From a virus, in the IMG/VR virus record IMGVR_UViG_3300021960_000226, positions 1 through 36,523 of that record: a stretch of 36,523 bases of DNA; one strand, written 5' to 3'. A program made the translations under genes and the position numbers. Shown here piece after piece: positions 2,678 through 31,920 of the stretch; the first letter of the stretch is position 1, and each line of letters opens with the position of its first letter. The notes under the pieces were generated by a model. It was not told the DNA's origin. It was given only the letters and a program-made list of their open reading frames with translations, and searched no databases.

Positions 2678-2679
2678 CG

Positions 2680-2841
2680 TTATTCAGGGTCAGGTGCTTC
2701 AAATTGTAGGGTCAGGATGTATTCGTTGTCGTCTGTCAGCATGAAATCGTTGTCATCATTCACAAGGAATGTGGCCTCGATCACTTTGTCGCCCCCGGTG
2801 GAAGCGGCAACTGTTGGCAAACCTAGGCCAAAGCCGATCAT
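2680..2841 (-). CDS. Small acidic protein (53 aa) nested between structural genes
   Basis: A 53-codon gene that ordinary length cut-offs would miss. Its ATG at 2841-2839 overlaps the TGA of the upstream gene (2840-2838) in an ATGA arrangement, and its stop lies 2 bases before the start of the long fibre gene. The product begins MIGFGLGLPTVAAS and has a beta-rich, Asp/Asn-rich second half (LVNDDNDFMLTDDNEYI). No family is recognised. Tight packing in the structural operon is the main evidence that it is real, and a minor virion or fibre-adaptor role is only a guess. Confidence 0.6.
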   Translation of the reverse strand: MIGFGLGLPTVAASTGGDKVIEATFLVNDDNDFMLTDDNEYILTLQFEAPDPE

Positions 2842-3134
2842 ACATCGTAGGCAGTTATCTCACCAGAGGTGACAGTAATGGATGTGGCCCTGCAGCATCT
2901 CCAGTAGGAACCTGCTTGCAGGTTGACATTCGTGATGGTTCCCAGTCCTCCGCTGGCGACACTGCCTAGGACAGTTGCTGAGTGAGCAAAGATCCAACTG
3001 AAGTTACCAGTGATCGTTCCACCACCATTCTGGTAGGTTCCACTGTCTGACCCCAGAGTGCCGTCTTCGCCAACTCTGACTGTGCGATATTTGTCGTTCT
3101 GGTCTACGCCAGTGATGAGTGATGCTCTGCTCAT
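2838..3134 (-). CDS. Small beta-rich structural protein (98 aa)
   Basis: The 98-residue protein begins MSRASLITGVDQNDKYRTVRVG. It has a Gly/Thr/Ser-rich beta-strand pattern (ITGNFSWIFAHSATVLGSV, then LQAGSYWRCCRATSITV) like small head or fibre-base proteins encoded between connector and fibre genes. Its start is 1 base from the stop of the connector gene and its stop overlaps the next start (ATGA). Two adjacent Cys lie near residue 80. No enzyme motif is visible. A minor virion protein is inferred from context only. Confidence 0.6.
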   Translation of the reverse strand: MSRASLITGVDQNDKYRTVRVGEDGTLGSDSGTYQNGGGTITGNFSWIFAHSATVLGSVASGGLGTITNVNLQAGSYWRCCRATSITVTSGEITAYDV

Positions 3135-3135
3135 G

Positions 3136-3864
3136 TTAGTATCCAGCTACCTCTAGCCGGGTTGTCTGACCCTGCTGTGTGTGTAGCTTCAGTAGTTCGT
3201 GATCAAGCACGTCTCGGGCATCTGCCTCGGCTACCCTAGCCCTGTCCAGCTCACCATTGTGTCTCAGGTAATCGCTGTAAGTGCCTCGCACTAGGTAGTC
3301 GAAAAATATGTTGGGTATTGCTACCACATCCCAGTAACTGGGCTGTGCAGTAGGACTGTTGTTCCCTGCTGCCACAGACTGGTTGGCCTCGTAAAACTGA
3401 CCAGCCGTGTTGTCATAGACCTGATCCCCGGTGCTGTAAGCACTCGAGGAGCTGTAGAGAGCCCCAGTCAGTGTAGGAACTGTCTTCCTGAACCAGAGAT
3501 ACGCTGTGGTGTTGTTCTCAGCGATCTGGATGCCGTTCTCAGACAGATACCACGTTAGTGATATCTGATCCTGATTTGACTTTGGTGACTTGTTCCACAC
3601 AGCAAAGACCTCACCGATCTCTGTCTGTCCTGCCTGATTAAGGGCTATGTAATTTCCCTCGTCTCCGCCAGTCTGTGTAACGGTCCTGCTCTCAGTGACA
3701 GTTACCTCAGGCCATTTGGCAGCCTGCCAAGCGTATTTCAGACGCCTGCTGGACAAGTCTCTGAACAGGTTCCACTCCAGCGTTGGCAGAGTGGCCCTGT
3801 CTATGCCTGACAGGTTCAAGACCTGATTCAGGATCTGTCCATAGTTGGCTGGGCTAAGAGCCAT
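3136..3864 (-). CDS. Head-tail connector / adaptor protein with a carbohydrate-binding-like insert
   Basis: The 242-residue protein begins with a helical segment (NYGQILNQVLNLSGID) and ends with a helical YLRHNGELDRARVAEADA region. This is typical of podovirus adaptor proteins that dock under the portal (T7 gp11-like role). Residues about 139-183 form a separate module, AYSTGDQVYDNTAGQFYEA ... PSYWDVV. It matches the pattern of CBM5/12-like modules (Y..GD.V.. then YEA then W), placed between the sheet region and the C-terminal helices. It overlaps the upstream gene by 11 bases. The adaptor assignment rests on position and pattern, and the insert is analysed separately. Confidence 0.6.
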   Translation of the reverse strand: MALSPANYGQILNQVLNLSGIDRATLPTLEWNLFRDLSSRRLKYAWQAAKWPEVTVTESRTVTQTGGDEGNYIALNQAGQTEIGEVFAVWNKSPKSNQDQISLTWYLSENGIQIAENNTTAYLWFRKTVPTLTGALYSSSSAYSTGDQVYDNTAGQFYEANQSVAAGNNSPTAQPSYWDVVAIPNIFFDYLVRGTYSDYLRHNGELDRARVAEADARDVLDHELLKLHTQQGQTTRLEVAGY

Positions 3865-4165
3865 ATCCTACTTGTATCTTCCCCGTGCCTTCGCTTTTCA
3901 CTTTCAGCTCAGGGTTCTTCTCAGAAATGTATTTACGGAATTTGGGGTCTTTCCAGATCTCCTTGCCTTCCTTCTTGACCCACTCTTGATAGACCTTGCT
4001 ATCAACCTCCATTGTGGCTCGCCCTAGACCGTTCATGCTTTTACGGCCTTGGTTCTGTCGAGCGATCTCCTTCTGCCGCTCTGTTGCTCTCGCTAGACGC
4101 TCTTCGTATGACCCGTTGTATTGACGAGCCAGAGCCTCTTTCATTGCCTCGGTGTAGTCTGACAT
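3854..4165 (-). CDS. Conserved-looking basic helical protein (103 aa), unknown
   Basis: The 103-residue protein starts MSDYTEAMKEALARQYNGSY. It is charged and strongly helical through residue 45 (YEERLARATERQKEIARQNQG) and Lys-rich toward the C-terminus. There is no transmembrane segment or signal peptide. It lies between the small head protein and the connector gene. The start has an A-rich leader without Shine-Dalgarno, downstream of two tandem hairpins. Likely a head-completion or minor virion protein by location. The family is not recognised. Confidence 0.55.
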   Translation of the reverse strand: MSDYTEAMKEALARQYNGSYEERLARATERQKEIARQNQGRKSMNGLGRATMEVDSKVYQEWVKKEGKEIWKDPKFRKYISEKNPELKVKSEGTGKIQVGYGS

Positions 4166-7736: not shown

Positions 7737-8636
7737 ATGAGTAAGAAAAAACACAAGACAGTGCAAGACATTATTTTGCACTACGAGAAAAATGTCACTC
7801 ACGTTAGACCAAACACAAAGAAACAGGTTCTGTATTGCAGCAAATATTTTGTCAGCAAGATCGGTTGTGATCTCTCAGATAACCCATCAAAGGTTTTCAC
7901 GCCAAAGAATGTCATCAAGTTCCAGAAGCTGATGCTCGGGTCGTCTCAGAACAGTGAGCGCACTAGGGCTGCTATATCTGCTAATTCATTCCTGAGGATG
8001 ACCAAAAGTCTGTTCTCTGAGCATGTCGTCCACATCTACAGGAATCTGCCAAAGGAGGTAGGCGAATTCAAAGCGTCCAAACCACTGCCAGCAAGGCAGG
8101 CTCAATACAGCGTGTCAGACAAGCGTGATGCAATGAGGCGAATCATTGAAAGATGCGAGAAGCTGAAGAACAAGAAGCCTGACGACTACCTGTGCTACTT
8201 CCTGATGATGCACTGTGGAATGAGGCGCAAGGAAGCAGCATTTGCTAGATGGAGCTGGATTGGTGACAACTGCATCACAGTCAGGGAGGAGGATGACTTC
8301 AGCACAAAGTCTGGCAGATCCAGAAACATCCCACTGTCAGATGCTCAGATTTCGTTTCTGAGAAGCAAGCAGAAGCACCGAGACCACATACTGCCCGGGG
8401 CCAAGACAAATCGATACAGGACCATCCCTGATCGCATAGCAAAGATCATCAGGAAGGAGGGCATAACCGGGTCGAAGTCTGCACACGAGCTGCGGAAATA
8501 CTACGGGGCAAATGTGGCTACCCAGCTCGGGCTCTTCGAGGCTCAGAAGTATCTAGGCCATAGCTCACCAAACATTACCAGCCAGTATTACGCTGACCTG
8601 ATCGAGGCAAAACCTGTGGAGGTAAAAATTCTTTAA
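7737..8636 (+). CDS. int: Tyrosine recombinase / integrase
   Basis: The 299-residue site-specific recombinase is expected to integrate and excise the phage genome through attP/attB recombination. Residues 5-115 form the core-binding (SAM-like) domain. The catalytic domain follows with the full active-site set: R163 in CGMRRKEAAFARW, K191 in the TKSGRSRNIPL beta hairpin, H250 and R253 in SAHELRKYYG, H275 in YLGHSSPNIT, and nucleophile Y284 nine residues after H275. Length is normal for the family and nothing is missing. It lies between the two promoter-hairpin cassettes. No tRNA gene or obvious attP core is visible nearby. The start ATG 7737 has a weak A-rich leader. Confidence 0.93.
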   Translation: MSKKKHKTVQDIILHYEKNVTHVRPNTKKQVLYCSKYFVSKIGCDLSDNPSKVFTPKNVIKFQKLMLGSSQNSERTRAAISANSFLRMTKSLFSEHVVHIYRNLPKEVGEFKASKPLPARQAQYSVSDKRDAMRRIIERCEKLKNKKPDDYLCYFLMMHCGMRRKEAAFARWSWIGDNCITVREEDDFSTKSGRSRNIPLSDAQISFLRSKQKHRDHILPGAKTNRYRTIPDRIAKIIRKEGITGSKSAHELRKYYGANVATQLGLFEAQKYLGHSSPNITSQYYADLIEAKPVEVKIL

Positions 8637-9083: not shown

Positions 9084-9455
9084 ATGAAAAAACATGAGTT
9101 CAAAATCGAAATAACAGCAGACATCTCGAAGGTGTCCGAGGTCTATGAGGCAGTCAGCCTTGTGGAGGGTGTAGAGATCAAGGTCCTAGACTGCATCGAG
9201 GTCAAAGAGGCAGTCAGGCCCAAGGTCACTGGTGCAAAACGTGGTCGCAAGAAGCAGAAATACAAGGTCGAGGAAGACCCTAATGCTGTGACCATCTACA
9301 AGAACGGCAAACACGTTCTCGATGTGGATGCTACCATCAAGAAGTTGGGCATCACCAAGGACTACCTCAAGAAGAACTCGTTCAAGCGAGATGCTCTTGA
9401 GTGTCGTCTCAAACATGCAATGGCAATCAAGGCTTCGAGATGGTCAAAGCACTGA
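9084..9455 (+). CDS. Accessory protein (123 aa): beta-alpha-beta N-terminus, basic linker, possible DNA-binding C-terminus
   Basis: The 123-residue protein has three parts. Residues 5-37 (FKIEITADISKVSEVYEAV and on) resemble the C-terminal segment of the gene at 7240. Residues 48-62 are a strongly basic linker (TGAKRGRKKQKYKV). Residues 75-123 contain IKKLGITKDYLKKNSFKRDAL, which could be a helix-turn-helix. Such a plan suits a nucleic-acid-binding regulator but no family is recognised. The start ATG 9084 follows a long A/C-rich leader without Shine-Dalgarno. Its end overlaps the start of the SleB lysin by 16 bases. Confidence 0.55.
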   Translation: MKKHEFKIEITADISKVSEVYEAVSLVEGVEIKVLDCIEVKEAVRPKVTGAKRGRKKQKYKVEEDPNAVTIYKNGKHVLDVDATIKKLGITKDYLKKNSFKRDALECRLKHAMAIKASRWSKH

Positions 9456-9844
9456 TACTACTGATCACCTGCTGCACTCTGTCTGCAGCGGATCACACCG
9501 TGGCTCTCACCATACTGGCGGAAGCCAGAGGTGAGGGCATACGGGGGATGGCAGCAGTCGCCTGCGTCATCTCCCAACGAGCCAAGGAGCGTGGCATCAC
9601 GCCCAAGGAAGTCTGCCTGCAGCGCAAGCAGTTTTCCTGCTGGGACTCAGGCAAGGACCTGAGCTACCTGCTAGACACTCCTCAGGCTGAACATGCGCTC
9701 TACTTCGAGAAGCACATCCACAGGATGAAGCAGGAAGTCACGGGTGGAGCTAATCATTACCACGCAACATACGTGAAACCATACTGGGCAGATGAGTCGA
9801 AGAAGACTGTTCAGATTGGCAACCACATATTCTACAAACTATGA
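9440..9844 (+). CDS. SleB-type cell wall hydrolase with N-terminal signal segment (endolysin candidate)
   Basis: The 134-residue protein belongs by pattern to the Hydrolase_2 / SleB family, which cleaves peptidoglycan and is used by phages as endolysin. Visible landmarks are the AEARGEG segment with E28 and E32 (E28 being the likely catalytic acid), GMAAVACVISQRA, FSCWD, TGGANHYHA (residues 101-109) and IGNHIFY at the C-terminus. Residues 1-16 (MVKALILLITCCTLSA) form a signal peptide or signal-anchor-release segment, so the enzyme probably reaches the periplasm by the Sec route. I chose ATG 9440 because it gives this signal; the open frame upstream gives none. The next gene starts inside its stop (ATGA). 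No holin is recognised nearby. Confidence 0.85.
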   Translation: MVKALILLITCCTLSAADHTVALTILAEARGEGIRGMAAVACVISQRAKERGITPKEVCLQRKQFSCWDSGKDLSYLLDTPQAEHALYFEKHIHRMKQEVTGGANHYHATYVKPYWADESKKTVQIGNHIFYKL

Positions 9845-16151: not shown

Positions 16152-16460
16152 CTACTGGTCATATACTGTCCCAGACCAGCCTGCTTTGACTGCTGCTACA
16201 CCCTCTCCATTGAGCTTGATAAACAGCTCTGAGGAGGCCGTAGAGGCAGCCTGAAAGACTGGGTAGTCCTGTGGGCTTATCTGGGTCAGTATCTTGCCGT
16301 CTACCAGCCTTGAGAACGGTCCTCTGAACTGGTCTAGCTGCCATCTACCGTCACCGTCTGCGTCTCGGTATATGGCTATGATCTGCATGTCTGAGGCTGG
16401 GTGTTCCCAGCTTGCGAATACGTATTTGTCCCCTATTTCGAGGAGGTTAGTTTCTTTCAT
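16152..16460 (-). CDS. Small protein (102 aa), function unknown
   Basis: The 102-residue protein starts MKETNLLEIGDKYVFASWEH and is beta-rich, with a GDKYVFASW / MQIIAIYRDADGDGRW pattern and an acidic DADGDG turn that could bind a metal. It overlaps the preceding gene by 4 bases. No family is recognised. It sits between the PD-(D/E)XK-like gene and the TerS-like gene in the replication transcript. Confidence 0.5.
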   Translation of the reverse strand: MKETNLLEIGDKYVFASWEHPASDMQIIAIYRDADGDGRWQLDQFRGPFSRLVDGKILTQISPQDYPVFQAASTASSELFIKLNGEGVAAVKAGWSGTVYDQ

Positions 16461-16894
16461 GTTTGTAGTGGGTCTTTGTGGATGGTGAAGTGCTCGATGG
16501 GGATATGGATCACCACTCCCATATCCTGAGAGTCTCCTCTGTCTGATCTGCCGCCCATTCTCCAGTCATTGAATGGCTGGAACATGTCGATGCTGCCTAG
16601 GGCGTCTGTCCACTGCACCCACAGTGTGGCCTGCAGGAACTCATTGATCTGGCAGTAGGTGAAAGCGTTGTGGAACTTCTCGAGGCACAGCATGAATGTG
16701 GGGTATTCATTCAGAGGGTTTGTCCTGCACTTGACCTCGATCATGTGTGTGATCTCTCCCTGTCTGGTTGCAGCGTAGTCAAAGGAGTGCCTAGGAGGAA
16801 GCTCATGCAGTGGCTGCTGCATGATCATCTCGATCTTGGTCTTGACTAGCTCCTGATTGGCTCTGTCTTCATGTGTCTCGTATGTTGGCCTCAT
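16457..16894 (-). CDS. Putative PD-(D/E)XK-fold protein (145 aa)
   Basis: The 145-residue protein starts MRPTYETHEDRANQELV. It contains HSFDYAATRQGEITHMIEVKCR (residues about 36-57 in outline): an Asp (D39) followed by E-x-K (E53, K55), the typical order of a PD-(D/E)XK nuclease or structurally related protein. An N-terminal Glu (E14) could be the accessory acid. It could process replication or recombination intermediates. It overlaps the kinase gene by 26 bases and the next gene by 4. The nuclease activity is an inference from the motif spacing. Confidence 0.5.
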   Translation of the reverse strand: MRPTYETHEDRANQELVKTKIEMIMQQPLHELPPRHSFDYAATRQGEITHMIEVKCRTNPLNEYPTFMLCLEKFHNAFTYCQINEFLQATLWVQWTDALGSIDMFQPFNDWRMGGRSDRGDSQDMGVVIHIPIEHFTIHKDPLQT

Positions 16895-17393
16895 AATGCT
16901 TCACTGCTGCTAGGATGTTGCCCCTGAACTCGTAGATGCTGCCATCGTTGCAGACTGTGTAGTCTGGGATGATGTCATCCACACTGGTCTCAGATGTGTG
17001 CGTGTCTGAGGTATCTGTTCTGGGACTGTTAATCCCTATGACAAATCCCCCAAGAGACCTGATCCAGTCTGCCTCGAACGGAAACCTGATGTCGTCGCAG
17101 ATCATGCTGCTGTAGTGATTGCAGAGCACGTTCCATCGTCGTGTGGCTGCCTCTACCCAGTATTCCCTGCCGTAGAGCTGCTTCATCGCTTCCCCGTATG
17201 CCTGCAGCACTGGCCGCAGGATCTCCTTGTCCTGCTTGCAGCAGGCTCCTGTGACTGACTGCACGGTCTCCTTGATTGGGCCTGCTAGGCTGATGACTGT
17301 GGCATCGTCCTCGAGATGCCTGACAATGGCTTCTGCTGCCGTTGATTTCCCTGAGTGCTTCCTGCCGCACAGGCCTATGATTAGTCTACTCAT
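16869..17393 (-). CDS. Deoxynucleoside monophosphate kinase-like P-loop protein
   Basis: The 174-residue protein begins MSRLIIGLCGRKHSGKST, a Walker A P-loop at residues 10-18. It continues with a pattern seen in phage dNMP kinases: a LAGPIKE segment after the second strand and a YGREYWVEAATRRW segment (residues about 74-87) for substrate binding. Such enzymes phosphorylate dNMPs to dNDPs to raise nucleotide supply for phage DNA synthesis, acting in the cytoplasm. Length is slightly short for the family but the fold signature is clear. It overlaps the preceding small gene by 8 bases. Confidence 0.75.
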   Translation of the reverse strand: MSRLIIGLCGRKHSGKSTAAEAIVRHLEDDATVISLAGPIKETVQSVTGACCKQDKEILRPVLQAYGEAMKQLYGREYWVEAATRRWNVLCNHYSSMICDDIRFPFEADWIRSLGGFVIGINSPRTDTSDTHTSETSVDDIIPDYTVCNDGSIYEFRGNILAAVKHYEANIRDT

Positions 17394-21697: not shown

Positions 21698-21987
21698 TGC
21701 CAGTTCTCAGGAGAGACTGTTACCACAAGCTCCCTGAGATAGTTCAGGAGGCAGTGCGTATGTTCAGTGCTAAGTCAATTAGCTGGCCTGACGGCCCATA
21801 CGTGCTGCCTCCTGCAATGCCTAGTGTTGAGGCTATGGATGATATCCCTGACTACATAGCCTACTGCAAGCGAATGCTGAAGAGCAAGAAACTGGACAGG
21901 CATCAGGCTAGGTCCTTGATGGAGGGACTGAAGTCTTGTGGGGATGAAGGGAAAGTAATGATTGAGAAGCTGAAGAAAGTGAAATGA
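21697..21987 (+). CDS. Small protein (96 aa), function unknown
   Basis: The 96-residue protein starts MPVLRRDCYHKLPEIVQEAV. It has a Pro-rich middle (YVLPPAMPSVEAMDDIPD) and a basic helical C-terminus (KSKKLDRHQARSLMEGLKSC). Coupled to the exonuclease (TGATG) and to the first glycosyltransferase (ATGA). It could be an accessory factor for the recombination nuclease or the glycosyltransferases. No family is recognised. Confidence 0.5.
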   Translation: MPVLRRDCYHKLPEIVQEAVRMFSAKSISWPDGPYVLPPAMPSVEAMDDIPDYIAYCKRMLKSKKLDRHQARSLMEGLKSCGDEGKVMIEKLKKVK

Positions 21988-22820
21988 AGACTGCTATTGC
22001 GGTGCAGGCATACAATAGACCTGATGAATTAAAGATCACGCTTGATAGCCTCAAAGCCAACAAGTCGAAGCACGATGTCTGGATATGGGTTGATGGGCCA
22101 AACCTAAAAGCAAATGAAGAGACCATATCCAGAGTCAGCAAGACCTTTGATGTAGCTCGCAAATACAGGGGGGCCTCAGTGTCGGCTGGTATGGTAAACA
22201 ACGGGGCCAACACATCACTCCTGATGCAGATGGACTACCTGTTCAACGTCAGGAAATACGATGCAGTGATCCAGCTTTGCGACGACCTGATGCTCTCCCC
22301 TAACTACATAGCAAATGTAGATAAAATGCTCAGGATGTTTGAGGGGGATCAGCGTGTAGGAATGGTTTCAGCTATGGGCGCAAGAAAGAAAGATGAGCAT
22401 GATCCATATCTGCACTGCCTGACATCGATATCATATCAGATTGGAATCGCCACTTGGGCAGACAGATGGGCAAGATGGAGAAGGCATGTTCAGGTGTTCG
22501 TTGAGAAAAGCTCTCGTGATGACTATGATGGTATGGGTGATGTGGTTAAGAAATTTGGAGCGAACACTTCAGTGACTGGAGTTTCATGTGATGCATTGCT
22601 GTATGCGATCATGCTATGGGAAGATTCGATCCCTGTCAGCACTGTTGCTAACTGTTTGAAAAACATTGGCCCGGTAGGTGCATTTAGCAATGAAGATACA
22701 TACAAGGATCAGGGCTGGAATGAAATGCCATTCTACCAAGACATCATCAAAGTGGATTATCCTGAGGACAAGTTCTTTTCTGAAGCACTTGAAACACTCA
22801 GGACAAACAGGAACAGATGA
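21984..22820 (+). CDS. Glycosyltransferase, GT-A fold
   Basis: The 278-residue protein starts MKTAIAVQAYNRPDELKITL, the first strand and nucleotide-binding loop of GT-A glycosyltransferases (family 2 / GNT-I-like). AVIQLCDDLMLSPNYI (D100, D101) supplies the metal-binding Asp pair for a nucleotide sugar. The C-terminal half contains WADRWARWRRHVQVF and CDALLYAIMLWEDSI. Substrate is unknown: phage DNA bases, host surface glycan or virion proteins are possible. It is coupled by ATGA to both neighbours. Confidence 0.8.
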   Translation: MKTAIAVQAYNRPDELKITLDSLKANKSKHDVWIWVDGPNLKANEETISRVSKTFDVARKYRGASVSAGMVNNGANTSLLMQMDYLFNVRKYDAVIQLCDDLMLSPNYIANVDKMLRMFEGDQRVGMVSAMGARKKDEHDPYLHCLTSISYQIGIATWADRWARWRRHVQVFVEKSSRDDYDGMGDVVKKFGANTSVTGVSCDALLYAIMLWEDSIPVSTVANCLKNIGPVGAFSNEDTYKDQGWNEMPFYQDIIKVDYPEDKFFSEALETLRTNRNR

Positions 22821-23527
22821 ATAACTGTTACTTCATATACGGCGAGCAAGAGTCTAAGCCAATGCCCAGAGGATGGGCAAAGAACATCTCGGATTTCTCT
22901 AGGCTGAATTCGTCTCAGTTCAACACGAGACTGGTAACTCTGAAGACATGTAGAGATGAACACGGAGATCTTTTTAGGTTGAGCAAAATCTTTTGGGCTC
23001 AGGTCATGAGGTTCCAGTTCATCTATGAGAACGGAGGTCTTTACTCTGATTGCGACATAGAGTTTTACGGTCCAGTTCCAGATGTTTCTGAGTGTGATTA
23101 CGTGTTTGCTACCGAGATTCACGGTCATGTCAGTGATGCATTTTTCTACGCAAAACCGGGCAGCAGCATAATCAAGAAAGCCTTGGACCTTAGCCTCGAC
23201 TGGTGCTACGGGATTTTAAACAGCAAAGTCTCAAGTGTAACTACATTGGAGTTTTTGGAGAGGGCTGGTGTTGGCATGTTCAGCAAACTGGTAAGGCGTG
23301 AGACACCTCATGACTTTACGGGCAACAAGCAGGTTCACATGTCTCAAGCGGAGTTTGCTGGGAGGTTTCACCCTGAAGATGGTGTCGGCATTGTCCCTTT
23401 TGAGGCACTTTGCAGGCATAGCCGACATAACTGGATTGGCTGGCATCAGTGCAACGGGACTTGGAGGCCTAGGTCTGAGGACAAGGTTGATATGAATATC
23501 AACTCTCTAATTAAACTTAACAGGTAA
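22817..23527 (+). CDS. Glycosyltransferase with DXD motif (Gly_transf_sug / OCH1-like)
   Basis: The 236-residue protein has the pattern AQVMRFQFIYENGGLYSDCD (residues 61-80), the signature of the DXD sugar-binding (Gly_transf_sug) family. D78 and D80 form the DXD, and R65 precedes the helix that packs on the active site. It carries several extra Cys and His toward the C-terminus (CRHSRHNWIGWHQC). It is the last gene of the right operon, before a terminator at 23675-23716. Paired with the preceding GT, it may add a second sugar to the same acceptor. Confidence 0.8.
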   Translation: MNNCYFIYGEQESKPMPRGWAKNISDFSRLNSSQFNTRLVTLKTCRDEHGDLFRLSKIFWAQVMRFQFIYENGGLYSDCDIEFYGPVPDVSECDYVFATEIHGHVSDAFFYAKPGSSIIKKALDLSLDWCYGILNSKVSSVTTLEFLERAGVGMFSKLVRRETPHDFTGNKQVHMSQAEFAGRFHPEDGVGIVPFEALCRHSRHNWIGWHQCNGTWRPRSEDKVDMNINSLIKLNR

Positions 23528-23716: not shown

Positions 23717-26700
23717 CTACTTGTTCAAGAACCTCTCAGCCTCCTCTACAGAGCCGAATACAGGGCCTATGCGGCGTCCTGTAGGGCCGTAGACCCTCAC
23801 ACCTGCCCTGCTAGAGGTCTGGACCGCTCTGTGGCCTTCAGCGGTCGTATAGACGGCTCCACCACGATTGTTGAGGGATCGCTGAGGGGAGAACTTGTTG
23901 GCTTCCTCTCTCGCCGTCTTCATTTCCTGAACCCTAGCCTTACCTATGGAGCTACCATACTTCTGAGTTACTGGTTTCTCGTAGGTCCTAGGATCAAGTG
24001 CTCCCGGCTTGATTTCTGGTTGCAAGCTAGGATCAGTCAGACTTCTCATGCTGACTGCCCTGAACGTCGATGGGACTACGTCCCCCTTCTTGGATACACG
24101 ATCTCCCAACTCAGCTCTTAGCAAATCATACATACTCAGGCGGCCCCTGATGTTTGATACAGACTTACCTAGAACGCCATACCTATATGACGGGTGAACG
24201 GGCAGGCCCATATCTTGTGGGTCAACGATTGATGTGGGACCTGATTTGTCGAACTTAATGACTTTGACAATGTCGCCAGTCCGGTATCCATCTTTGTCCT
24301 TATAGGCAGACATGTCTGCAGCAACATCCTTCCAGAATATGCCGCCATACTTGTTCTTGTAGGACTCTGATGCAAGTTTCTGCCACACCAGCTTCCTGAC
24401 CTCAAAAGGCATAGTGGGAAACATGCCCTCAAGATCCTTCAGGCTTGTTATCTCAATCGACTCCCATTTCTTTGGCTTTGGCGCAGTGAATTTCTTGCCT
24501 TGCTTTTGTGCTTTCTTCTTATCTCTGGCCTCTTTACTGAGTCTATTTTTCTTAAATGTTTTTTGGATTTCAGCAGAGAGAGCCCCAAGCAGCTTCTTGA
24601 GGTCCTTCTTGATTGCAGGATTGTTCTTCAGATCATACCTCAACTCCTCCATCATAATTTCCGAGTAGTCCTTGTTGGAGGCAAGGGCAAGTTCATCCTG
24701 CAATGCGACAAGCCCATAACCATCAGTCGATCTGATAGCCTTATCAAGTCGAGCCCCTACCGGACCGCCCTCTACGGCCCAAGCAAGCTTACCTTGGTTG
24801 TCAGCTAGATCTGGATGATCTGGGCCGCCCCTTAGATTGAATACCCTACCGGATCGTGTCACGTATTCACCAACCATCATCCGGTCAGCAAACATGATGA
24901 ATGCTTTCTTCCCATTTAGCTGATCGAGGTTCACTCCCGGGTCATTGACCGCAGGTGAGAATCTGGCGATGACATCTGGAGTTAGTGTGAGCACTCCGTT
25001 GGCAGGAGTTCCAGATTCTATGGGCTCCTGCATCTGCCGCCTTACCTCAGGTATGGTGTCTGGCTCAGGAGAGAACCTGATGTCATCAGTAGTGTCCTTG
25101 AATCGCTCAGACAGAGGGATGATGCTGCCGTCATCATTGTAGGTGATAGGGTCAGCAGATTTGATGCGCTCAGGGTCCCTGACTGCTATGGTGTTCGATG
25201 GGCCTCCAGAGTCTTCTTGAATCCTGATGGCGTCATAGTTTTTAAAGATCTCATCGATGATTCTGGAGGGCTCCCACACCATATAGTTGCCCTCATTCAG
25301 CCTCTTTAAAATCCGAGGGTCTAATTCGTTGATGCTGGAAACTCCAAAGTGATTGGAAACTATGTCCGCAAACTCTCCCCAACCGTCCCTAGGATCAAAT
25401 ACCCTGTCAGCCTTGAGGTAAGCGTCAACAACTCTGATGCCCATCCTAGACAAAGCTTCACTGGCTGTCATGCCGTCAAGCTGTGATTTTTCATAGTCGT
25501 GGGATCGTTTGAATGCAGCGTCTGACTCGCTATCAGGAATGTCTTTTTCAGAGCCGTATTTTTCCACGAGAGCATTGATGTCGTCCCTGAACATTTGCCT
25601 TGAGACGGCCCGAGCTTTTTCAATTCTCTCTGCTACATCAGGCTCTGGGTTTCTGTGGCCGCCAAACCCTCGTGCATATTCTTTGGAGAACTGCTGATCA
25701 AATGAGAAATACACTAGGTTGTTGGGGTCACGAGGAGACCTGAACTGGTTGAATCGCCGCTTGGTCCCGTGATAGACAGGACCAATGGTATATCCCTCGT
25801 CTGCAGCAGCCTGCTTCACCATCTGGTTCAGCTTATCGTAATTCTTAGCCTTGGCTGCCTTCAGGTAATCTTGATCAGCTTTGCTGCGGCCCGTGCCGGG
25901 AGAGAACCGTGCGTCACCGGGAGCCTTAGGGTTCCACCCAAACTCAAAGATGCTGTTGCCCTCGGAGTAGACCTCCTTGGCCTTGACCTTCTTCTCGAGA
26001 ATGTCAGCACCAGTCTCATCGAAATACTTCGCATGAAGCTCTGCATACTTGCGAGAAGGTGTCACCCAGTCTCCCGGGTTAATCACACCAGAAACTCCTT
26101 TGGGGACTGCCCTGTAGATTGTCAGCTCTGCCTCAGGCTTGCCACGCAGGCTCCTAAAAAGCTGGATAGTCTTCCTGCTCTCGAAGTCGTCGTTGCCATA
26201 ATACCTAGCACCGTTGGAGCTGTAGATATCGTCTGGGTAGACTGTGTCCATCTTGTCGATGGAGCCCTCGCCGTAAGTGCCATCAGGAGCCCTGTGAGCC
26301 ATCCTGTAGCCATACTGGTCTACGTCAGGCATGAAGTGTGTCTGCCCCCTCTGGTAGGCAGCTTCAGAGAAGGACATGATGGGTCTGCCCTCACGCTGCC
26401 TCATTGAGACAATGCGATCCAGACGGAAGCTGCGCCAAGGGAAGTCCTTGCCTCCCTCAAATTTTCTGCGCTGTGCGGCAGTCAGGGGAACATCAGGTAT
26501 CTCTGGGTTACCCTTGACGTTTCTGATGCTAAGGATCTTGTTTAGGAAATCACTCTTGCGTTGGCTGCCTAGAACTTCTGCTGTGCGCTTCTCGCCAGCA
26601 GTCAGTGCATTGATGTAGGTGTGCAGGTCAGCAAACATGTTAGCCTCTGACCCAAACAGCTTCTGCATCTCGCCACTCTCCCTGTAAAGCCTTCTTGCCT

Positions 26701-29350
26701 TGGTCTCCAGCAGAGACATATCCAGAATGCGACCAGAGATTGTCCCCGTTCTAGGGCTCACAATGATGTCATACATCAGGCCATCACGATTGCTGATGGG
26801 TAAGTTCCTGTAGCGAGTCTTGCCCAGCTTTGTCTTCATCGTGGCTGCAGCGTATGTCCAGTTGGCATACTGATCGCCAGTGGCAATCTTCTGCAATTCC
26901 TGTAGAGCCTTCTTGACTGTGTCAGGGATGTCAGGTGAATCCATCAGGGCCTGATACTGCTCATCACTCAGACTGCTTCCTTCCCAGTCACCGTTGGGTT
27001 GCTTGGTGAGCCCGGGTTTTCTCTTGCGATCCTGCTTTGGCTTTTCTTCCCTCTTTGGCTTCTCTTCCTTCTTGGGCTTCTCCTTCTTGCCTTTCGGAGC
27101 CTTCTTGTCATCGACTTCAATGTCTTCTTCCTTGGGAACTCGCTCCTGCTTAGGTGCTGCACCTTCAGACTCAGAGAGAACCTTATCAATAGCAGCAGCT
27201 CGCTCCTTAGCCACACGCTTCTGCTCGGCATCCCCCATCATGACTCTACGGCCACGATTGTCAGTCTTGGCGATGCCCATACCTACCATAGCCTCAAAAG
27301 CTTGATCGTCTGACAAGTCAGCATCGCTGTAGGTCTTGATAGGTTGATCAAATGATGCCTCAACTTCACGGCCAGCCCTACGTCGAGCCTTGACCATATC
27401 ATTCATCATGCCGTCTAGCTGACGAGACTGCTTGATCCTGCTTTGAAATATAGGAGAACTGAATGTGTCGTAGACACGGTCCAGCTTGCCCTTAGTAAAT
27501 CGAGCAAACATCCCACGCAAACCCTCTGTGAATGAGTTGCCCGAGAAGATGTAGTCACTGTTCTTGCCCTTGATGAAGTTGACGAAATATTCTGCAGCAA
27601 GCTCCTCTAGGATGTAGTCAGCTTTTGCTTCAGCCGATCCGTTGAATCGCTTGACCTGCTCGCCAGTCAATGGGATCTCTCTGGTTAGCTTTTCCTCATA
27701 CTGCCTGATGAAGTCATTCAGCTCAGTCTGAGAATACATCCGCTTGGCAGTGTTCTTGATGTTTGAGATAAGAACATCGAATCCGTCCAACTTAGCTAGA
27801 GAGTGCAGCGTCTCGTGAAGCATTGTCCTGCCGTCTGCCTGTGTGTTCAGGTAGATGATAGGCTTCTCACCTTCTGTAGTGTAAAACCCAGCAGCAGTCC
27901 CAAGAGTGTTGCCAGCTTCATCGACCACAAAGTCTGGGTCCACATGCCTGACCTCTGCATTAACTGGTAGCAGGATCTGCTCTGCATCCATACGTGCGAT
28001 CCTGTCCTCTCTGGATAGGCCCTCGAGCCTAGCTCTATCCTCTGGGCTCTTGCTTTCTATCCATCTCCCAAAGTCTGCATCCTGAGCGTTCCTGAGTGCT
28101 GATCCAGTCAGACCCTCCACGGCTCTGCCTAGGCCTCCACCAGCAGCACCCAGCACACCACCAGAACCAACACCAGCAGCAAGGCCCTCGAGGCCACCTG
28201 TGGCTAGGCCTATGCCACCACCAATGCCTGCACCTATGGCAGCACCTCCTGCAGCCCGGCCAGCATACTCAATTGGAGTGTCTAGGAACTTCAGCCTGCC
28301 AGCCATCTTGCCAGCAATCGTGTCTGGCTGATGTAATGCCAGACGGCCAAGACCACCCAGCCTTGTGGGTGTATGAGCCATAGCCTCGCCAAAGCCAGTC
28401 AGAAGGCCTCCAGCAACGTCCAGCATCGTTGGTGCGGCAACTACAGCTCCTAGAGTCTGTGCAGTGCCTGCTCCCACTAATCCGCTCGCTACAGCAGCCC
28501 CTACGCCGCCGGGGACGACTACATTGCCTAAGCCGCCAGTGGCCTCATCGACCACTTCAGTAGCCCCTTTTACGACATTCTTGCCTCTTTCGATGACATC
28601 ACGACCAAACTCAGCAGCAATACCTGCTCCCTTTCCTGCCATCCTGACAGGCTTAGAGGCTGCCCGAGCCATAGCCCTAGAAGCTGCTCCGCCAATCTTA
28701 CCTGCAGGGATCAGCAGTGTAGGGTCAATGAACTCACCAGTGATCTCTGCTGCCCTCTGGTCAACTTTTGCTAGGTCAATCTTTGCAGCATCGAGCCCAG
28801 CAAACTCTGCATACTCATTCCAAGCTCCTTGCTCTCCACGCTCAATAGCTCCACGGACATTCTGAAGCTCTTTGATGCCAAGGAATCGCCTGAACTCCTC
28901 GTCCATCTCGTTTTCTGATGTGCCACCAAAGGACGCCAGCTTGGTCCTAAGGTAGTTGTTACCCATCTTGACGAGGGTCTCAGTGTCATACATGCCACGA
29001 GCAGCACCCTCCATAAACGTGCGAGCAGATGTCCCGGGCTCAAACACGTTGGCATAGGTAGCAATCGCAGAAGGCAAGTTCTCGATAATCCTGCTGGCAG
29101 TCATTACAGCCGCATCCACAGCAATACCGGGTAGGTCTGATAGACCTATCTCAGGCTTCGCAGCTTTATAACGAGAAAAGTCCTCCCGAGTTAGGGAGGA
29201 CGCTGGTGTGTCTGGGTTCTCGAATCGAGCTACCAGCTTCTCATCTGGTTCAGGGTAGTCACGCTGAATGATTTCCATAATGCGGTCCTCAGACATCTCG
29301 TCTGGGAACTGCAAGTTGACATCATAGTCTTCGAGATAGAGTTCTTGCAT
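23717..29350 (-). CDS. Giant polyvalent virion protein: HExxH protease-like, two ADP-ribosyltransferase-like domains
   Basis: The 1877-residue last gene of the structural operon is likely packaged and ejected. Residues 270-410 are Gly/Ala-rich hydrophobic stretches, as in ejection proteins. H512-E513-T-L-H516 forms an HExxH metal-protease motif, with an acidic EELAAEYF near 582-589 that could complete the zinc site. Residues about 741-778 are a Lys/Glu/Pro-rich linker. Residues about 1075-1140 (TIYRAVPK with R1080, GDWVTPSRKYAELHA, FEFGW with E1136) look like an ADP-ribosyltransferase. Residues about 1190-1415 (VYHGTKRRF with H1194, LVYFSF, then IKSADPITYNDDGS) match the ART-PolyVal pattern. 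RFSP-type motifs occur at 1148, 1425, 1463 and 1819. Start ATG 29350 sits in a tandem 8-base repeat. Confidence 0.85.
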   Translation of the reverse strand: MQELYLEDYDVNLQFPDEMSEDRIMEIIQRDYPEPDEKLVARFENPDTPASSLTREDFSRYKAAKPEIGLSDLPGIAVDAAVMTASRIIENLPSAIATYANVFEPGTSARTFMEGAARGMYDTETLVKMGNNYLRTKLASFGGTSENEMDEEFRRFLGIKELQNVRGAIERGEQGAWNEYAEFAGLDAAKIDLAKVDQRAAEITGEFIDPTLLIPAGKIGGAASRAMARAASKPVRMAGKGAGIAAEFGRDVIERGKNVVKGATEVVDEATGGLGNVVVPGGVGAAVASGLVGAGTAQTLGAVVAAPTMLDVAGGLLTGFGEAMAHTPTRLGGLGRLALHQPDTIAGKMAGRLKFLDTPIEYAGRAAGGAAIGAGIGGGIGLATGGLEGLAAGVGSGGVLGAAGGGLGRAVEGLTGSALRNAQDADFGRWIESKSPEDRARLEGLSREDRIARMDAEQILLPVNAEVRHVDPDFVVDEAGNTLGTAAGFYTTEGEKPIIYLNTQADGRTMLHETLHSLAKLDGFDVLISNIKNTAKRMYSQTELNDFIRQYEEKLTREIPLTGEQVKRFNGSAEAKADYILEELAAEYFVNFIKGKNSDYIFSGNSFTEGLRGMFARFTKGKLDRVYDTFSSPIFQSRIKQSRQLDGMMNDMVKARRRAGREVEASFDQPIKTYSDADLSDDQAFEAMVGMGIAKTDNRGRRVMMGDAEQKRVAKERAAAIDKVLSESEGAAPKQERVPKEEDIEVDDKKAPKGKKEKPKKEEKPKREEKPKQDRKRKPGLTKQPNGDWEGSSLSDEQYQALMDSPDIPDTVKKALQELQKIATGDQYANWTYAAATMKTKLGKTRYRNLPISNRDGLMYDIIVSPRTGTISGRILDMSLLETKARRLYRESGEMQKLFGSEANMFADLHTYINALTAGEKRTAEVLGSQRKSDFLNKILSIRNVKGNPEIPDVPLTAAQRRKFEGGKDFPWRSFRLDRIVSMRQREGRPIMSFSEAAYQRGQTHFMPDVDQYGYRMAHRAPDGTYGEGSIDKMDTVYPDDIYSSNGARYYGNDDFESRKTIQLFRSLRGKPEAELTIYRAVPKGVSGVINPGDWVTPSRKYAELHAKYFDETGADILEKKVKAKEVYSEGNSIFEFGWNPKAPGDARFSPGTGRSKADQDYLKAAKAKNYDKLNQMVKQAAADEGYTIGPVYHGTKRRFNQFRSPRDPNNLVYFSFDQQFSKEYARGFGGHRNPEPDVAERIEKARAVSRQMFRDDINALVEKYGSEKDIPDSESDAAFKRSHDYEKSQLDGMTASEALSRMGIRVVDAYLKADRVFDPRDGWGEFADIVSNHFGVSSINELDPRILKRLNEGNYMVWEPSRIIDEIFKNYDAIRIQEDSGGPSNTIAVRDPERIKSADPITYNDDGSIIPLSERFKDTTDDIRFSPEPDTIPEVRRQMQEPIESGTPANGVLTLTPDVIARFSPAVNDPGVNLDQLNGKKAFIMFADRMMVGEYVTRSGRVFNLRGGPDHPDLADNQGKLAWAVEGGPVGARLDKAIRSTDGYGLVALQDELALASNKDYSEIMMEELRYDLKNNPAIKKDLKKLLGALSAEIQKTFKKNRLSKEARDKKKAQKQGKKFTAPKPKKWESIEITSLKDLEGMFPTMPFEVRKLVWQKLASESYKNKYGGIFWKDVAADMSAYKDKDGYRTGDIVKVIKFDKSGPTSIVDPQDMGLPVHPSYRYGVLGKSVSNIRGRLSMYDLLRAELGDRVSKKGDVVPSTFRAVSMRSLTDPSLQPEIKPGALDPRTYEKPVTQKYGSSIGKARVQEMKTAREEANKFSPQRSLNNRGGAVYTTAEGHRAVQTSSRAGVRVYGPTGRRIGPVFGSVEEAERFLNK

Positions 29351-29371
29351 TACTGTATTACTGCATTACTG
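29348..29371. repeat. Three tandem 8-base units over a stop/start junction
   Basis: CATTACTG, TATTACTG, CATTACTG (29348-29371) span the stop of the 501-residue gene (29358-29360) and the ATG of the polyvalent gene (29350). Slippage here would shift stop and start positions. Confidence 0.55.
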
Positions 29372-30863
29372 GCTTGCCTGACATTCCATAGGACACGGTC
29401 CTACCCATAGGACGCTGTGCCTGCCCTGTTGTTCCTTGCAGGGGAGCCCAGCTAATTGCATTGGCTCTGTTTTTCAGTTTACCCTTGAGGTCACTCTGAA
29501 GTTCCTTGAGAACTTTGATGTTCACATCGCTGAATGACATGATCTTTGTGACATCAGGTATGACGGATGCCAGTATCTGCCACTCACCCTCTGAAACAGC
29601 TCCAGCCCCAACAATTTGTTCTTTGAGTTCGCCCATAAGGCGTTTCTGGATGCTTGTTGCTCTGTTCCTGTTTTCGGGACTGAGCTTCCCTACAAAGCCC
29701 TGCTTTGCAATATCAATAAGCTCTTGGATCTTTTCAATGCCCTCCTGTGTTGGGATGGCAAACTCGCGGAAGTCCTGAGCGATCTGCACAGATGGTGCTA
29801 CACCATAACCAGCAACTTCGCTGGCCTGAACTTCACGCTGCAGCTTCATCATTGCGATCTGCTCTGATGGAGTCAGCTTGTCTTGCTTAGGATAAAGCAT
29901 CTCATACAGGTTCTTGGCTTGCGTTGGGTATTTCTGAGCAAGCTCAGGGATATTCTCAGAGACACGCCTCATTACTTCCTGACTGGTCTCAAGTCTTGTA
30001 TCACCCTCTGCTGCCTGAATCCTGATGGCTTCCAAGTCTCTGGCTGCTTGCTGGACTTCAGGGGATGGCTCGAGTGCTGGCTCTGGCCCCATAGGTTGTG
30101 CTGGAGCTGATGGTTGAGGTGCTGCAAGCCTTTGAGGTGCAGGCTGAGGTGGAGCGAAGGTTTTATCGAAAGCCCCAGCTCTCCTCATTGCCTGCATCTC
30201 TTCCCTGCCGGGGATATCACTAACAAATCCGCCAGCAGGTTTTGACGCTTGAGGTGACCTAGGCAGAAGACCAGCACCTAGTCCACCTGATATTCCTTCA
30301 AATCTAGGAGCGTTATATCCACTTGCCAGAGACTGAACAAAACCACCAAGCTTATCTGCCACACCGGGTTGACCATAAAACTTACTGAAATCGGGTGGAG
30401 GTGGTTCTTCACTGGGTTTCGGAAACGTGAACTCAGGCCTGAATCCTGCTCGCTCTGCTTCTTGCAGCCTTCTTTCTGCAGCACTGATCTGTGGACCAAA
30501 GTCCCTCTCAACTTGCTGCGGCTGGTATGCTGTTAGCAAGTCAGAGTAAAAACCCTGAGCTTCCTCACGTTCACGTTGAGCAGCTATCTCTGGATACATT
30601 TGTGCATAGGCAGCAAGCTCTGATGCCTCCATACCCTTCAGCAAGTCTGCGTCAGCACCTAAGGCAGTCAAAGCAGTGATAGTCCCTTTCTTGAACTGCT
30701 CACGCTTCTTCATCTCCTCCTTGCGCTCCGCAAACTTCTCGATGCCCCTCCCGATGGATTGCCCTAGCCCTGCAAGTCCTGCACCAAGAAACTCGCCTAC
30801 ACGAGATCTCTCGGTAGGCTGAACGATTCCCTGTCCTGTGTATGTCTGTTGTGAAAATGGCAT
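29358..30863 (-). CDS. Internal virion / ejection-type protein (501 aa)
   Basis: The 501-residue protein begins MPFSQQTYTGQGIVQPTERS, then a Gly-rich segment (LGAGLAGLGQSIGRGIEKFA, residues about 27-46) and a basic helix. Residues 180-275 are Pro/Ala/Gln-rich and probably disordered, and residues 275-470 are helical. This is the composition of podovirus internal core or ejection proteins. It lies directly upstream of the polyvalent gene, 7 bases apart, and both are probably carried in the virion. No enzyme motif is seen. The role is inferred from location and composition. Confidence 0.6.
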   Translation of the reverse strand: MPFSQQTYTGQGIVQPTERSRVGEFLGAGLAGLGQSIGRGIEKFAERKEEMKKREQFKKGTITALTALGADADLLKGMEASELAAYAQMYPEIAAQREREEAQGFYSDLLTAYQPQQVERDFGPQISAAERRLQEAERAGFRPEFTFPKPSEEPPPPDFSKFYGQPGVADKLGGFVQSLASGYNAPRFEGISGGLGAGLLPRSPQASKPAGGFVSDIPGREEMQAMRRAGAFDKTFAPPQPAPQRLAAPQPSAPAQPMGPEPALEPSPEVQQAARDLEAIRIQAAEGDTRLETSQEVMRRVSENIPELAQKYPTQAKNLYEMLYPKQDKLTPSEQIAMMKLQREVQASEVAGYGVAPSVQIAQDFREFAIPTQEGIEKIQELIDIAKQGFVGKLSPENRNRATSIQKRLMGELKEQIVGAGAVSEGEWQILASVIPDVTKIMSFSDVNIKVLKELQSDLKGKLKNRANAISWAPLQGTTGQAQRPMGRTVSYGMSGKPVMQ

Positions 30864-30867
30864 AGTG

Positions 30868-31920
30868 TTATGCGAGCAGTTTCTTGATGCGTGAGTCCAT
30901 CCACTTCCTGATGGACGGCTTCAGCCATTCATTCTTAGATAGCCATCCAGCGAATCGCTGGCCGTATTTGACGTAGAGATCGTGGAACCAGACTGGCGAT
31001 TCTGTTTCAAGCCAGCTCCTGAACAGTAACCACATTGGATTGTTTGCCCCGTAAACTTCTCGTGCTACCCAACATTTGGTCGCAAGACCTCCTCCGATTG
31101 AGCCAAGTCCTTGCATCAGTCCTGCGCCAACTGCAGCTCGAGCATTGGCCGATGCGATGTTTGCGTTCAGTGCCGCATTGTAGTTACTGGCAGCAAGACT
31201 GCCTGCGTAGGCTGACTCTGGATTGAAGACCTGTTGCGGAGCCATACCCTGACCCTGCATAGCCACTCCCTGACCAGCTTGTATACCCACACCGGGCCTA
31301 CCGAGAATAGCCATAAACGGATCAGCGGCAGTGGCAGCGTTCAAGCCTACCATCTGCTGTGCAAATGCCTGACGCCTGCGCTGTAGCTGTTCAGCCTGCA
31401 GCCCCTTGACTAGGGCCTCCTGACCTATGTCAGCCATACCAAAGCCCATACCACGGGCAGCCTGAGCCCCACGGACCTGCTGCTCGAGTTCTCGAGACAG
31501 GGCTGGTGGTAGTGCTGCCCCTGAGGCCAGTTCTTCCTGCGCCTGCCTGTTCAGCTCTGCCATCAGTGCAGCCTGCTCAGGATTGGCCTGCCTGAAGGCC
31601 TCAGTGGCTCTCTGACCGAGTCTCTCGACTGCAGCGATGTCTCCCTCTCGAGACACATCAAGGCCAGCCACATCAGCTCTAGCGAGCCCGGGCATGATGT
31701 CTCGCTCATAGAGTTCCAGCAGACCGGGCTGACCGTCAGTGCCTCGCATCAGGTCACGCAAGACCTGCAAGTTGAGGCGAGCCTCTGCTGGCCTGCCGTA
31801 TTCCTGACTGGCTTCAGCAGCAAACAGCTCTGGAGCCAGATCAATTTGTGCCTGAAGTGTGTCCCGTGTCTCCTTGGCGTAGTCCCTAGGAGGAGGGGCG
31901 TCTGCGCTATACATTCCCAT
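30868..31920 (-). CDS. Virion protein with Ala/Gln-rich helical body and conserved-looking C-terminal tail (350 aa)
   Basis: The 350-residue protein starts MGMYSADAPPPRDYAKETRD. Residues 20-190 are helical and rich in Ala, Glu, Gln and Arg. Residues about 200-275 are Gly/Ala/Gln-rich. The C-terminal 65 residues form a compact aromatic segment beginning CWVAREVYGANNPMW and ending in a basic helix (KPSIRKWMDSRIKK), a tail type I associate with phage internal or tail-associated proteins. It is encoded between the 145-residue and 501-residue virion genes. Likely an internal core or ejection component. Confidence 0.6.
   Translation of the reverse strand: MGMYSADAPPPRDYAKETRDTLQAQIDLAPELFAAEASQEYGRPAEARLNLQVLRDLMRGTDGQPGLLELYERDIMPGLARADVAGLDVSREGDIAAVERLGQRATEAFRQANPEQAALMAELNRQAQEELASGAALPPALSRELEQQVRGAQAARGMGFGMADIGQEALVKGLQAEQLQRRRQAFAQQMVGLNAATAADPFMAILGRPGVGIQAGQGVAMQGQGMAPQQVFNPESAYAGSLAASNYNAALNANIASANARAAVGAGLMQGLGSIGGGLATKCWVAREVYGANNPMWLLFRSWLETESPVWFHDLYVKYGQRFAGWLSKNEWLKPSIRKWMDSRIKKLLA

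Follow-up and report, generated by a model that had tools for sequence, protein, structure and literature searches.

A single gene of the window (the whole 36,523-base IMG/VR virus record IMGVR_UViG_3300021960_000226) raises the question of how several unlike enzymatic domains are held together in one phage protein and what becomes of the chain that joins them. An earlier note had read this gene as one reading frame combining a protease-like site with two ADP-ribosyltransferase (ART)-like domains. It is indeed a single 1,877-aa ORF, located on the minus strand (the strand was absent from that note), and each landmark quoted for its product, hereafter P0001, is present at the residue given: HETLH, YRAV with R1080, YHGT with H1194, IKSADP at 1396, TYNDDGS at 1403, FADRMMVGEY at 1487, NLRGGPDHPD at 1505 and AWAVEGGP at 1523. 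The features of the locus are collected in Table 1.

Table 1. Features of P0001 and of the genes upstream, with positions in the window.
Feature	Residues	Positions	Strand	Basis or remark
P0001, whole ORF, putative polyvalent cargo protein	1-1877	23717..29350	-	ATG start, stop included
N-terminal start motif FPDxxSxxxI	1-40	29231..29350	-	also opens FMP-cohort proteins
Conserved N-terminal framework	1-1004	26339..29350	-	alignment with cassette-swapped relatives stops at its border
Gly/Ala-rich, moderately hydrophobic stretch	275-412	28115..28528	-	Kyte-Doolittle maximum
Likely zincin-like metallopeptidase core	465-595	27566..27958	-	alignment, model, PDB neighbours
HETLH	512-516	27803..27817	-	conserved in relatives
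Glu pair E583/E587, candidate third zinc ligand	583-587	27590..27604	-	conserved
Lys/Glu-rich insert	735-779	27014..27148	-	missing from most relatives
Delimiter 1, HFMP, framework/cassette border	1005-1008	26327..26338	-	alignment, breakpoints
Cassette 1, likely ART-like (R1080, T1097, E1136)	1009-1147	25910..26326	-	PHROG 2579 match, homologue alignment
Delimiter 2, RFSP	1148-1151	25898..25909	-	motif count
Cassette 2, ART-PolyVal (H1194, D1373) and IKSADP...DIRFSP end	1152-1424	25079..25897	-	PF18760, alignment
Delimiter 3, RFSP	1425-1428	25067..25078	-	motif count, ART-end alignment
34-aa spacer cassette	1429-1462	24965..25066	-	cassette clustering (cluster 8)
Delimiter 4, RFSP	1463-1466	24953..24964	-	motif count
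Cassette 3, function not assigned	1467-1818	23897..24952	-	largely helical (model); cluster 3, common to FMP-cohort phages
Delimiter 5, KFSP; cassette slot in relatives	1819-1822	23885..23896	-	relatives' insertions
Conserved C-terminal tail, 55 aa	1823-1877	23720..23884	-	tail scans
Two upstream genes (501 and 350 aa)		29358..31920	-	synteny kept in relatives

The source phage is a P22-like tailed phage with a SU10 capsid (capsid protein, SU10_MCP; terminase related to that of phage C75C1). In reading order, P0001 is preceded by a P22 gp10-like tail/head-closure gene, whose product weakly resembles head closure or stabilization proteins, then by a pair of putative fibre-like genes, a gene for a 145-aa protein (PHROG 21390) and the 350-aa and 501-aa genes, the last two probably encoding companion internal virion proteins. 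With the 501-aa gene as bait we recovered ten loci, in which a relative of P0001 comes next wherever the downstream gene is present (all but L011). The place of an internal virion protein proposed for P0001 is thus well supported by synteny, kept in the window and in L006-L014, and P0001 is probably carried in the virus particle. It occupies the same position as gp16 of T7 and of P22, being the last large gene in a series that starts with the P22 gp10-like gene and includes two smaller genes, putatively for ejection proteins, but no sequence similarity to these internal virion proteins was detected and, unlike them, P0001 carries enzyme cassettes. No useful match was obtained when segments covering the peptidase, the second ART and the C-terminus were compared by tblastn with 50,697 named phages, and phmmer with the whole protein against PDB sequences gave nothing significant.

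The hydrophobic segments of ejection type that had been read in the framework are borne out only by one marginal 19-residue Kyte-Doolittle window (maximum 1.65, residue 286); the surrounding Gly/Ala-rich stretch is not clearly membrane-spanning. The protease-like site fared better, since HETLH is conserved, together with the downstream Glu pair, across an alignment of 23 relatives with identities down to about 16-25%. H512, E513, E583 and E587 are invariant and H516 is kept in at least 90%, so that both the HExxH motif and the downstream Glu ligand of zincins are found (H512, E513, H516, E583/E587), with HExxE in L054 and L060. An AlphaFold model built on this alignment (mean pLDDT 66) contains a small sheet, a HExxH helix and a long helix bearing E583 and E587. 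Zincins make up its top seven PDB neighbours, yet these matches are weak (best E 0.022, probability 0.72), and the peptidase profile found nothing significant among PDB sequences. Taken together, the region is likely to be a zincin and a putative peptidase.

The first cassette corresponds to a likely ART-like domain of the R-[S/T]-E type. Residues 1013-1142 match PHROG 2579, annotated as 'ParB C-terminal domain' (E=1.2e-30), and are about 38-41% identical to mycobacteriophage proteins in which R, [S/T] and E are kept. One of these homologues, Pumpkin gp129, is a 129-aa stand-alone gene, whereas in P0001 the same module is a cassette within a virion-type protein. Both R1080 and E1136, on which the domain had been proposed, are invariant in eight homologues, which come from four groups of unrelated phages and have either S or T at position 1097; the triad of R-S-E ADP-ribosyltransferases is therefore present as R1080, T1097 and E1136. 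The profile of this domain detected no solved relative among PDB sequences. Structure prediction, to which the earlier note had looked for the folds, gave the weak zincin matches for the peptidase and nothing informative for the ARTs: a Foldseek search with a model of residues 1000-1877, covering both, returned no informative match (Tankyrase 1, an ART, appears at only E=3.4).

The second ART, announced from H1194, is by its sequence an ART-PolyVal domain of the H-Y-D type. H1194 (strand 1) and D1373 (strand 5) are invariant across the whole set of such domains that we aligned; the Tyr of the triad is not. The match of residues 1191-1400 of P0001 to PF18760 remains below the cut-off (26.3 against 31.2 bits) and P0001 carries an insert of about 70 residues relative to the family, but orthologues pass the cut-off (80.0 bits in L006, 59.4 bits in L013). 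The profile of the domain against PDB sequences gave nothing significant. Scanning with it led to 17 genome loci and 80 viral loci, in which the end of the ART reads IKSADP...IPLSxRF...DIR[FY]xx, with last letters that vary between phages and agree within a protein. IKSADP and TYNDDGS, taken previously as the ending of the catalytic domain, actually belong to a shared cassette end leading into the DIRFSP delimiter. The further domain suspected at 1478-1600 proved to be part of a bounded cassette, cassette 3.

By its domain content and context P0001 belongs among the polyvalent proteins as defined by Iyer et al. (2017), because it combines a zincin-like site, an ART-PolyVal domain and an R-[S/T]-E ART-like domain; both the unlike enzymatic domains in one chain and the late/virion gene context of that class are found here, which agrees with the concept invoked in the earlier note. 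In the available text of that study (Iyer, Burroughs, Anand, de Souza and Aravind, 2017; PMC5512222), polyvalent proteins of phages and conjugative elements are described as assemblies of many unlike domains with a zincin-like MPTase hub, for which self-processing by the MPTase was proposed, and no cleavage sequence is named there. P0001 resembles them in its MPTase hub, its Tox-ART-HYD2 ART and its position adjoining virion genes; lineage-specific delimiters, a shared tail and the R-[S/T]-E ART-like cassette go beyond the description in that text (PMC5512222).

These delimiters, which the earlier note did not mention, are copies of a [RKH]-F-[SM]-P peptide repeated at each domain border of P0001. 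The form [RK][FYW]SP occurs four times in the protein against 0.07 expected, a count reached by none of 20,000 shuffles, and has no occurrence in the other 8,742 aa checked of the window. In order to follow the peptide in relatives, two cohorts were chosen by the C-terminal tail alone, leaving the delimiter out, the two tail types being scanned separately. The 11 nonredundant proteins of the FSP cohort contain 39 FSP (1.0 in shuffles) and two FMP, the latter only as HFMP at the first border; the 19 nonredundant proteins of the FMP cohort contain 65 FMP (0.8 in shuffles) and 11 FSP, all in recurrent non-delimiter contexts, chiefly the framework sequence GRFSPEQLSA. Delimiters in the cohorts read [RK]-F-S-P or R-[FYW]-M-P, corresponding to a consensus of R/K, F/Y/W, S/M and P, then often A or S. 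Among 61 nonredundant polyvalent proteins, a protein's own tetrapeptide is matched 61 times away from its ART ends, against 6.1 for the tetrapeptides of other phages. Copies within one protein agree with identities of 0.83-0.99 at the four motif positions and 0.62 at the next one, then fall to background within a few residues. The model of P0001, which is of low quality as a whole (mean pLDDT 55), places delimiters 2-5 within stretches of pLDDT<50 or at their margins. Searches of a literature collection with few subscription papers, aimed at the motif strings and at cleavage of polyproteins, brought up no mention of the delimiter, the novelty of which is therefore provisional.

The same peptides mark the points at which relatives differ. 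The alignments indicate that P0001 is made of a conserved framework and a conserved tail enclosing exchangeable cassettes parted by short delimiters: relatives keep residues 1-1008 and about 1424-1877 and replace the middle, and the breakpoints in P0001 fall at HFMP 1005, RFSP 1148, RFSP 1425, RFSP 1463 and KFSP 1819. In the middle, the first ART-like cassette is retained by two relatives (L009 and L013), and three (L006, L010 and L012) have ART-PolyVal domains different from that of P0001. The slot at 1819 is left empty in some relatives and filled in others by a methyltransferase (L009, L010, L016), a L5 gp82-like domain (L013) or a further ART (L016, L018). Of the homology breakpoints, 34% and 29% come no further than 8 aa from a delimiter, where random placement would give 7% and 6% (about 4.5-fold; related pairs are not independent). 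Splitting the proteins at delimiters gave 369 cassettes, which fall into 30 clusters and 4 singletons and form 70 different strings in 97 proteins, some of them truncated. Nine clusters are common to the two cohorts, among them those of the tail, ART-PolyVal, the R-[S/T]-E ART-like cassette and cassette 3; GNAT domains make up at least one more of the shared clusters. Cassettes common to both cohorts carry the local delimiter spelling. The local letter is found at 325 of the 335 delimiters flanking shared cassettes, a count that we do not use as evidence because the FMP proteins had been split beforehand at that letter; the FSP and FMP counts in the tail-selected cohorts are free of this bias. 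Layout, cassette exchange and lineage-specific conservation of the delimiter at the amino-acid level are demonstrated by these comparisons, as far as sequences go, and show phages swapping putative injected effectors as cassettes.

Some contigs bear two different proteins with the same tail, one near each end. Such pairs are L149 and L189 on contig IMGVR_UViG_3300044984_001713, L148/L163 and L217/L224. Both members of the first pair have framework sequence and may thus be paralogous cargo proteins in tandem; several of the proteins are cut by contig ends.

We favour, with a probability of about 50%, the reading of P0001 as a modular cargo polyprotein whose delimiters would be processing sites, the embedded zincin being the leading candidate for the cut. 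The chain would be packaged via its ends, the common C-terminal tail possibly serving as a packaging label, and ejected along with the DNA; cutting at the delimiters would take place either before this step or after it, and the ARTs freed by the cut would then act separately on host targets. More tentatively, and at somewhat less than even odds, each lineage may have a private four-residue mark of processing (R-F-S-P, R-[FY]-M-P, R-F-A-L, G-Y-S-I and others) that acquired cassettes come to carry; if so, effectors could be exchanged while processing is kept. A lineage-specific border peptide makes the self-processing predicted in 2017 directly testable, and it provides a criterion by which giant phage proteins that are hard to read in any other way can be divided into functional units.

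Part of the evidence against this reading concerns the enzyme. In all near-complete proteins listed from the two cohorts, a HExxH or HExxE lies ahead of the first delimiter, but HEVGE replaces HExxH in the framework peptidases of L054, L060 and the FSP proteins L125-L128, whose delimiters are still present, and HExxH is missing altogether from several polyvalent proteins that have recurrent tetrapeptides. A dependence of delimiter spelling on peptidase lineage found no support: on the MPTase tree, which has long branches flagged, FSP and FMP need two changes each, and HELFH- and HEILH-type enzymes both occur with FMP. These points count against the zincin, and its identification as the cutter is doubtful when taken separately. 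It is quite possible instead, in partial overlap with the other readings, that the zincin-like domain is inactive or has host proteins as its substrates, and that the chain is left to a different protease, of the virus or of the host, or to none. In giant phages the processing of ejected proteins is the task of a separate prohead protease (PMC10052503). On the other hand, Pfam recognised no peptidase besides the zincin-like domain in the window genes scanned, many structural genes there being unassigned.

The codons bear on whether the delimiters are rather recombination joints or inherited linker ends, cassettes being swapped by recombination close to short linkers that they share, each lineage's spelling being homogenised by copying, and no processing taking place. 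At repeated motifs of 22 proteins, codons agree in 242 of 401 comparisons against 135 predicted from codon usage, an excess from which it follows that recent copying contributes in some phages; repeated motifs have the same codons in L096, L111, L103 and L098. The clustering of breakpoints at delimiters and a spelling that tracks tail type, not peptidase type, point in the same direction. In L048, L108, L037, L030 and L050, however, agreement at equal motifs is that predicted from codon usage or slightly above, and across the cohorts the delimiter Ser uses six codons and Pro four, with F, Y and W interchanging. Since all Ser and Pro codons occur, conservation is at the protein level. Moreover, the similarity between copies is limited to about five residues, short for homologous recombination, and the local spelling on shared cassettes argues against simple joints; we consider this explanation unlikely. 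Still less probable is that the peptide, without being cleaved, serves as a signal for binding or threading (in packaging, towards a chaperone or when the chain unfolds on ejection), which would fit its occurrence directly before the tail in 11/11 FSP and 19/19 FMP proteins, its poorly structured surroundings and, again, the link of spelling to tail type. One copy would be enough for packaging, yet copies stand between all cassettes, and their basic-aromatic core seems to resemble a protease site. That the delimiter is merely the structural end of the ART-PolyVal domain might be thought from the D-I-R-[FY] located about 25 residues past the ART in most of 84 proteins; this extremely improbable reading was discarded, because the same peptide also borders the tail and GNAT, methyltransferase, L5 gp82-like and unassigned cassettes where no ART is next to it, and because it differs from phage to phage without being needed by the ART.

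The Alt protein of phage T4 is trimmed by a phage-encoded prohead protease and later ejected. The same is described for proteins of the giant phage SPN3US (PMC10052503). In both cases the protease is a separate gene, whereas the sole recognised peptidase here lies inside the cargo chain. The virion RNA polymerase (vRNAP) of N4 is, like P0001, a large ejected protein with a zincin-type HExxH domain (PMC12633501, PMC5512222), P0001 differing from it by having no RNA polymerase. According to PMC5512222, this HExxH-bearing protein is packaged uncut, which counts against the processing reading of P0001.

Two other proteins extend the range of delimiters. The 3,214-aa polyvalent protein L108 has five GYSI delimiters (residues 1022, 1212, 1572, 1820 and 2110) with differing codons and no recognised peptidase, and offers a clean test case for the identity of the delimiter-cutting enzyme. 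The 4,190-aa fragment L113 presents nine [RK]FALD delimiters (1751-4044) around ART-PolyVal and a C5 DNA methylase.

Elsewhere in the window, the protein encoded at 7737-8636 (plus strand) ends with a HELRKYYGA...LGHSSPNITSQYY pattern typical of tyrosine recombinases, which suggests a temperate phage. A cell wall hydrolase (PF07486, E=1.2e-16) at 9401-9844 (plus strand) is a candidate lysis enzyme. Two adjacent glycosyltransferase-like genes are present at 21984-23527 (plus strand), one of them matching Gly_transf_sug (PF04488, E=3e-5). On the minus strand, a deoxynucleotide monophosphate kinase gene (PF21448; 16869-17393) adjoins a PDDEXK endonuclease gene (PF24579; 16457-16894), the two jointly spanning 16457-17393.
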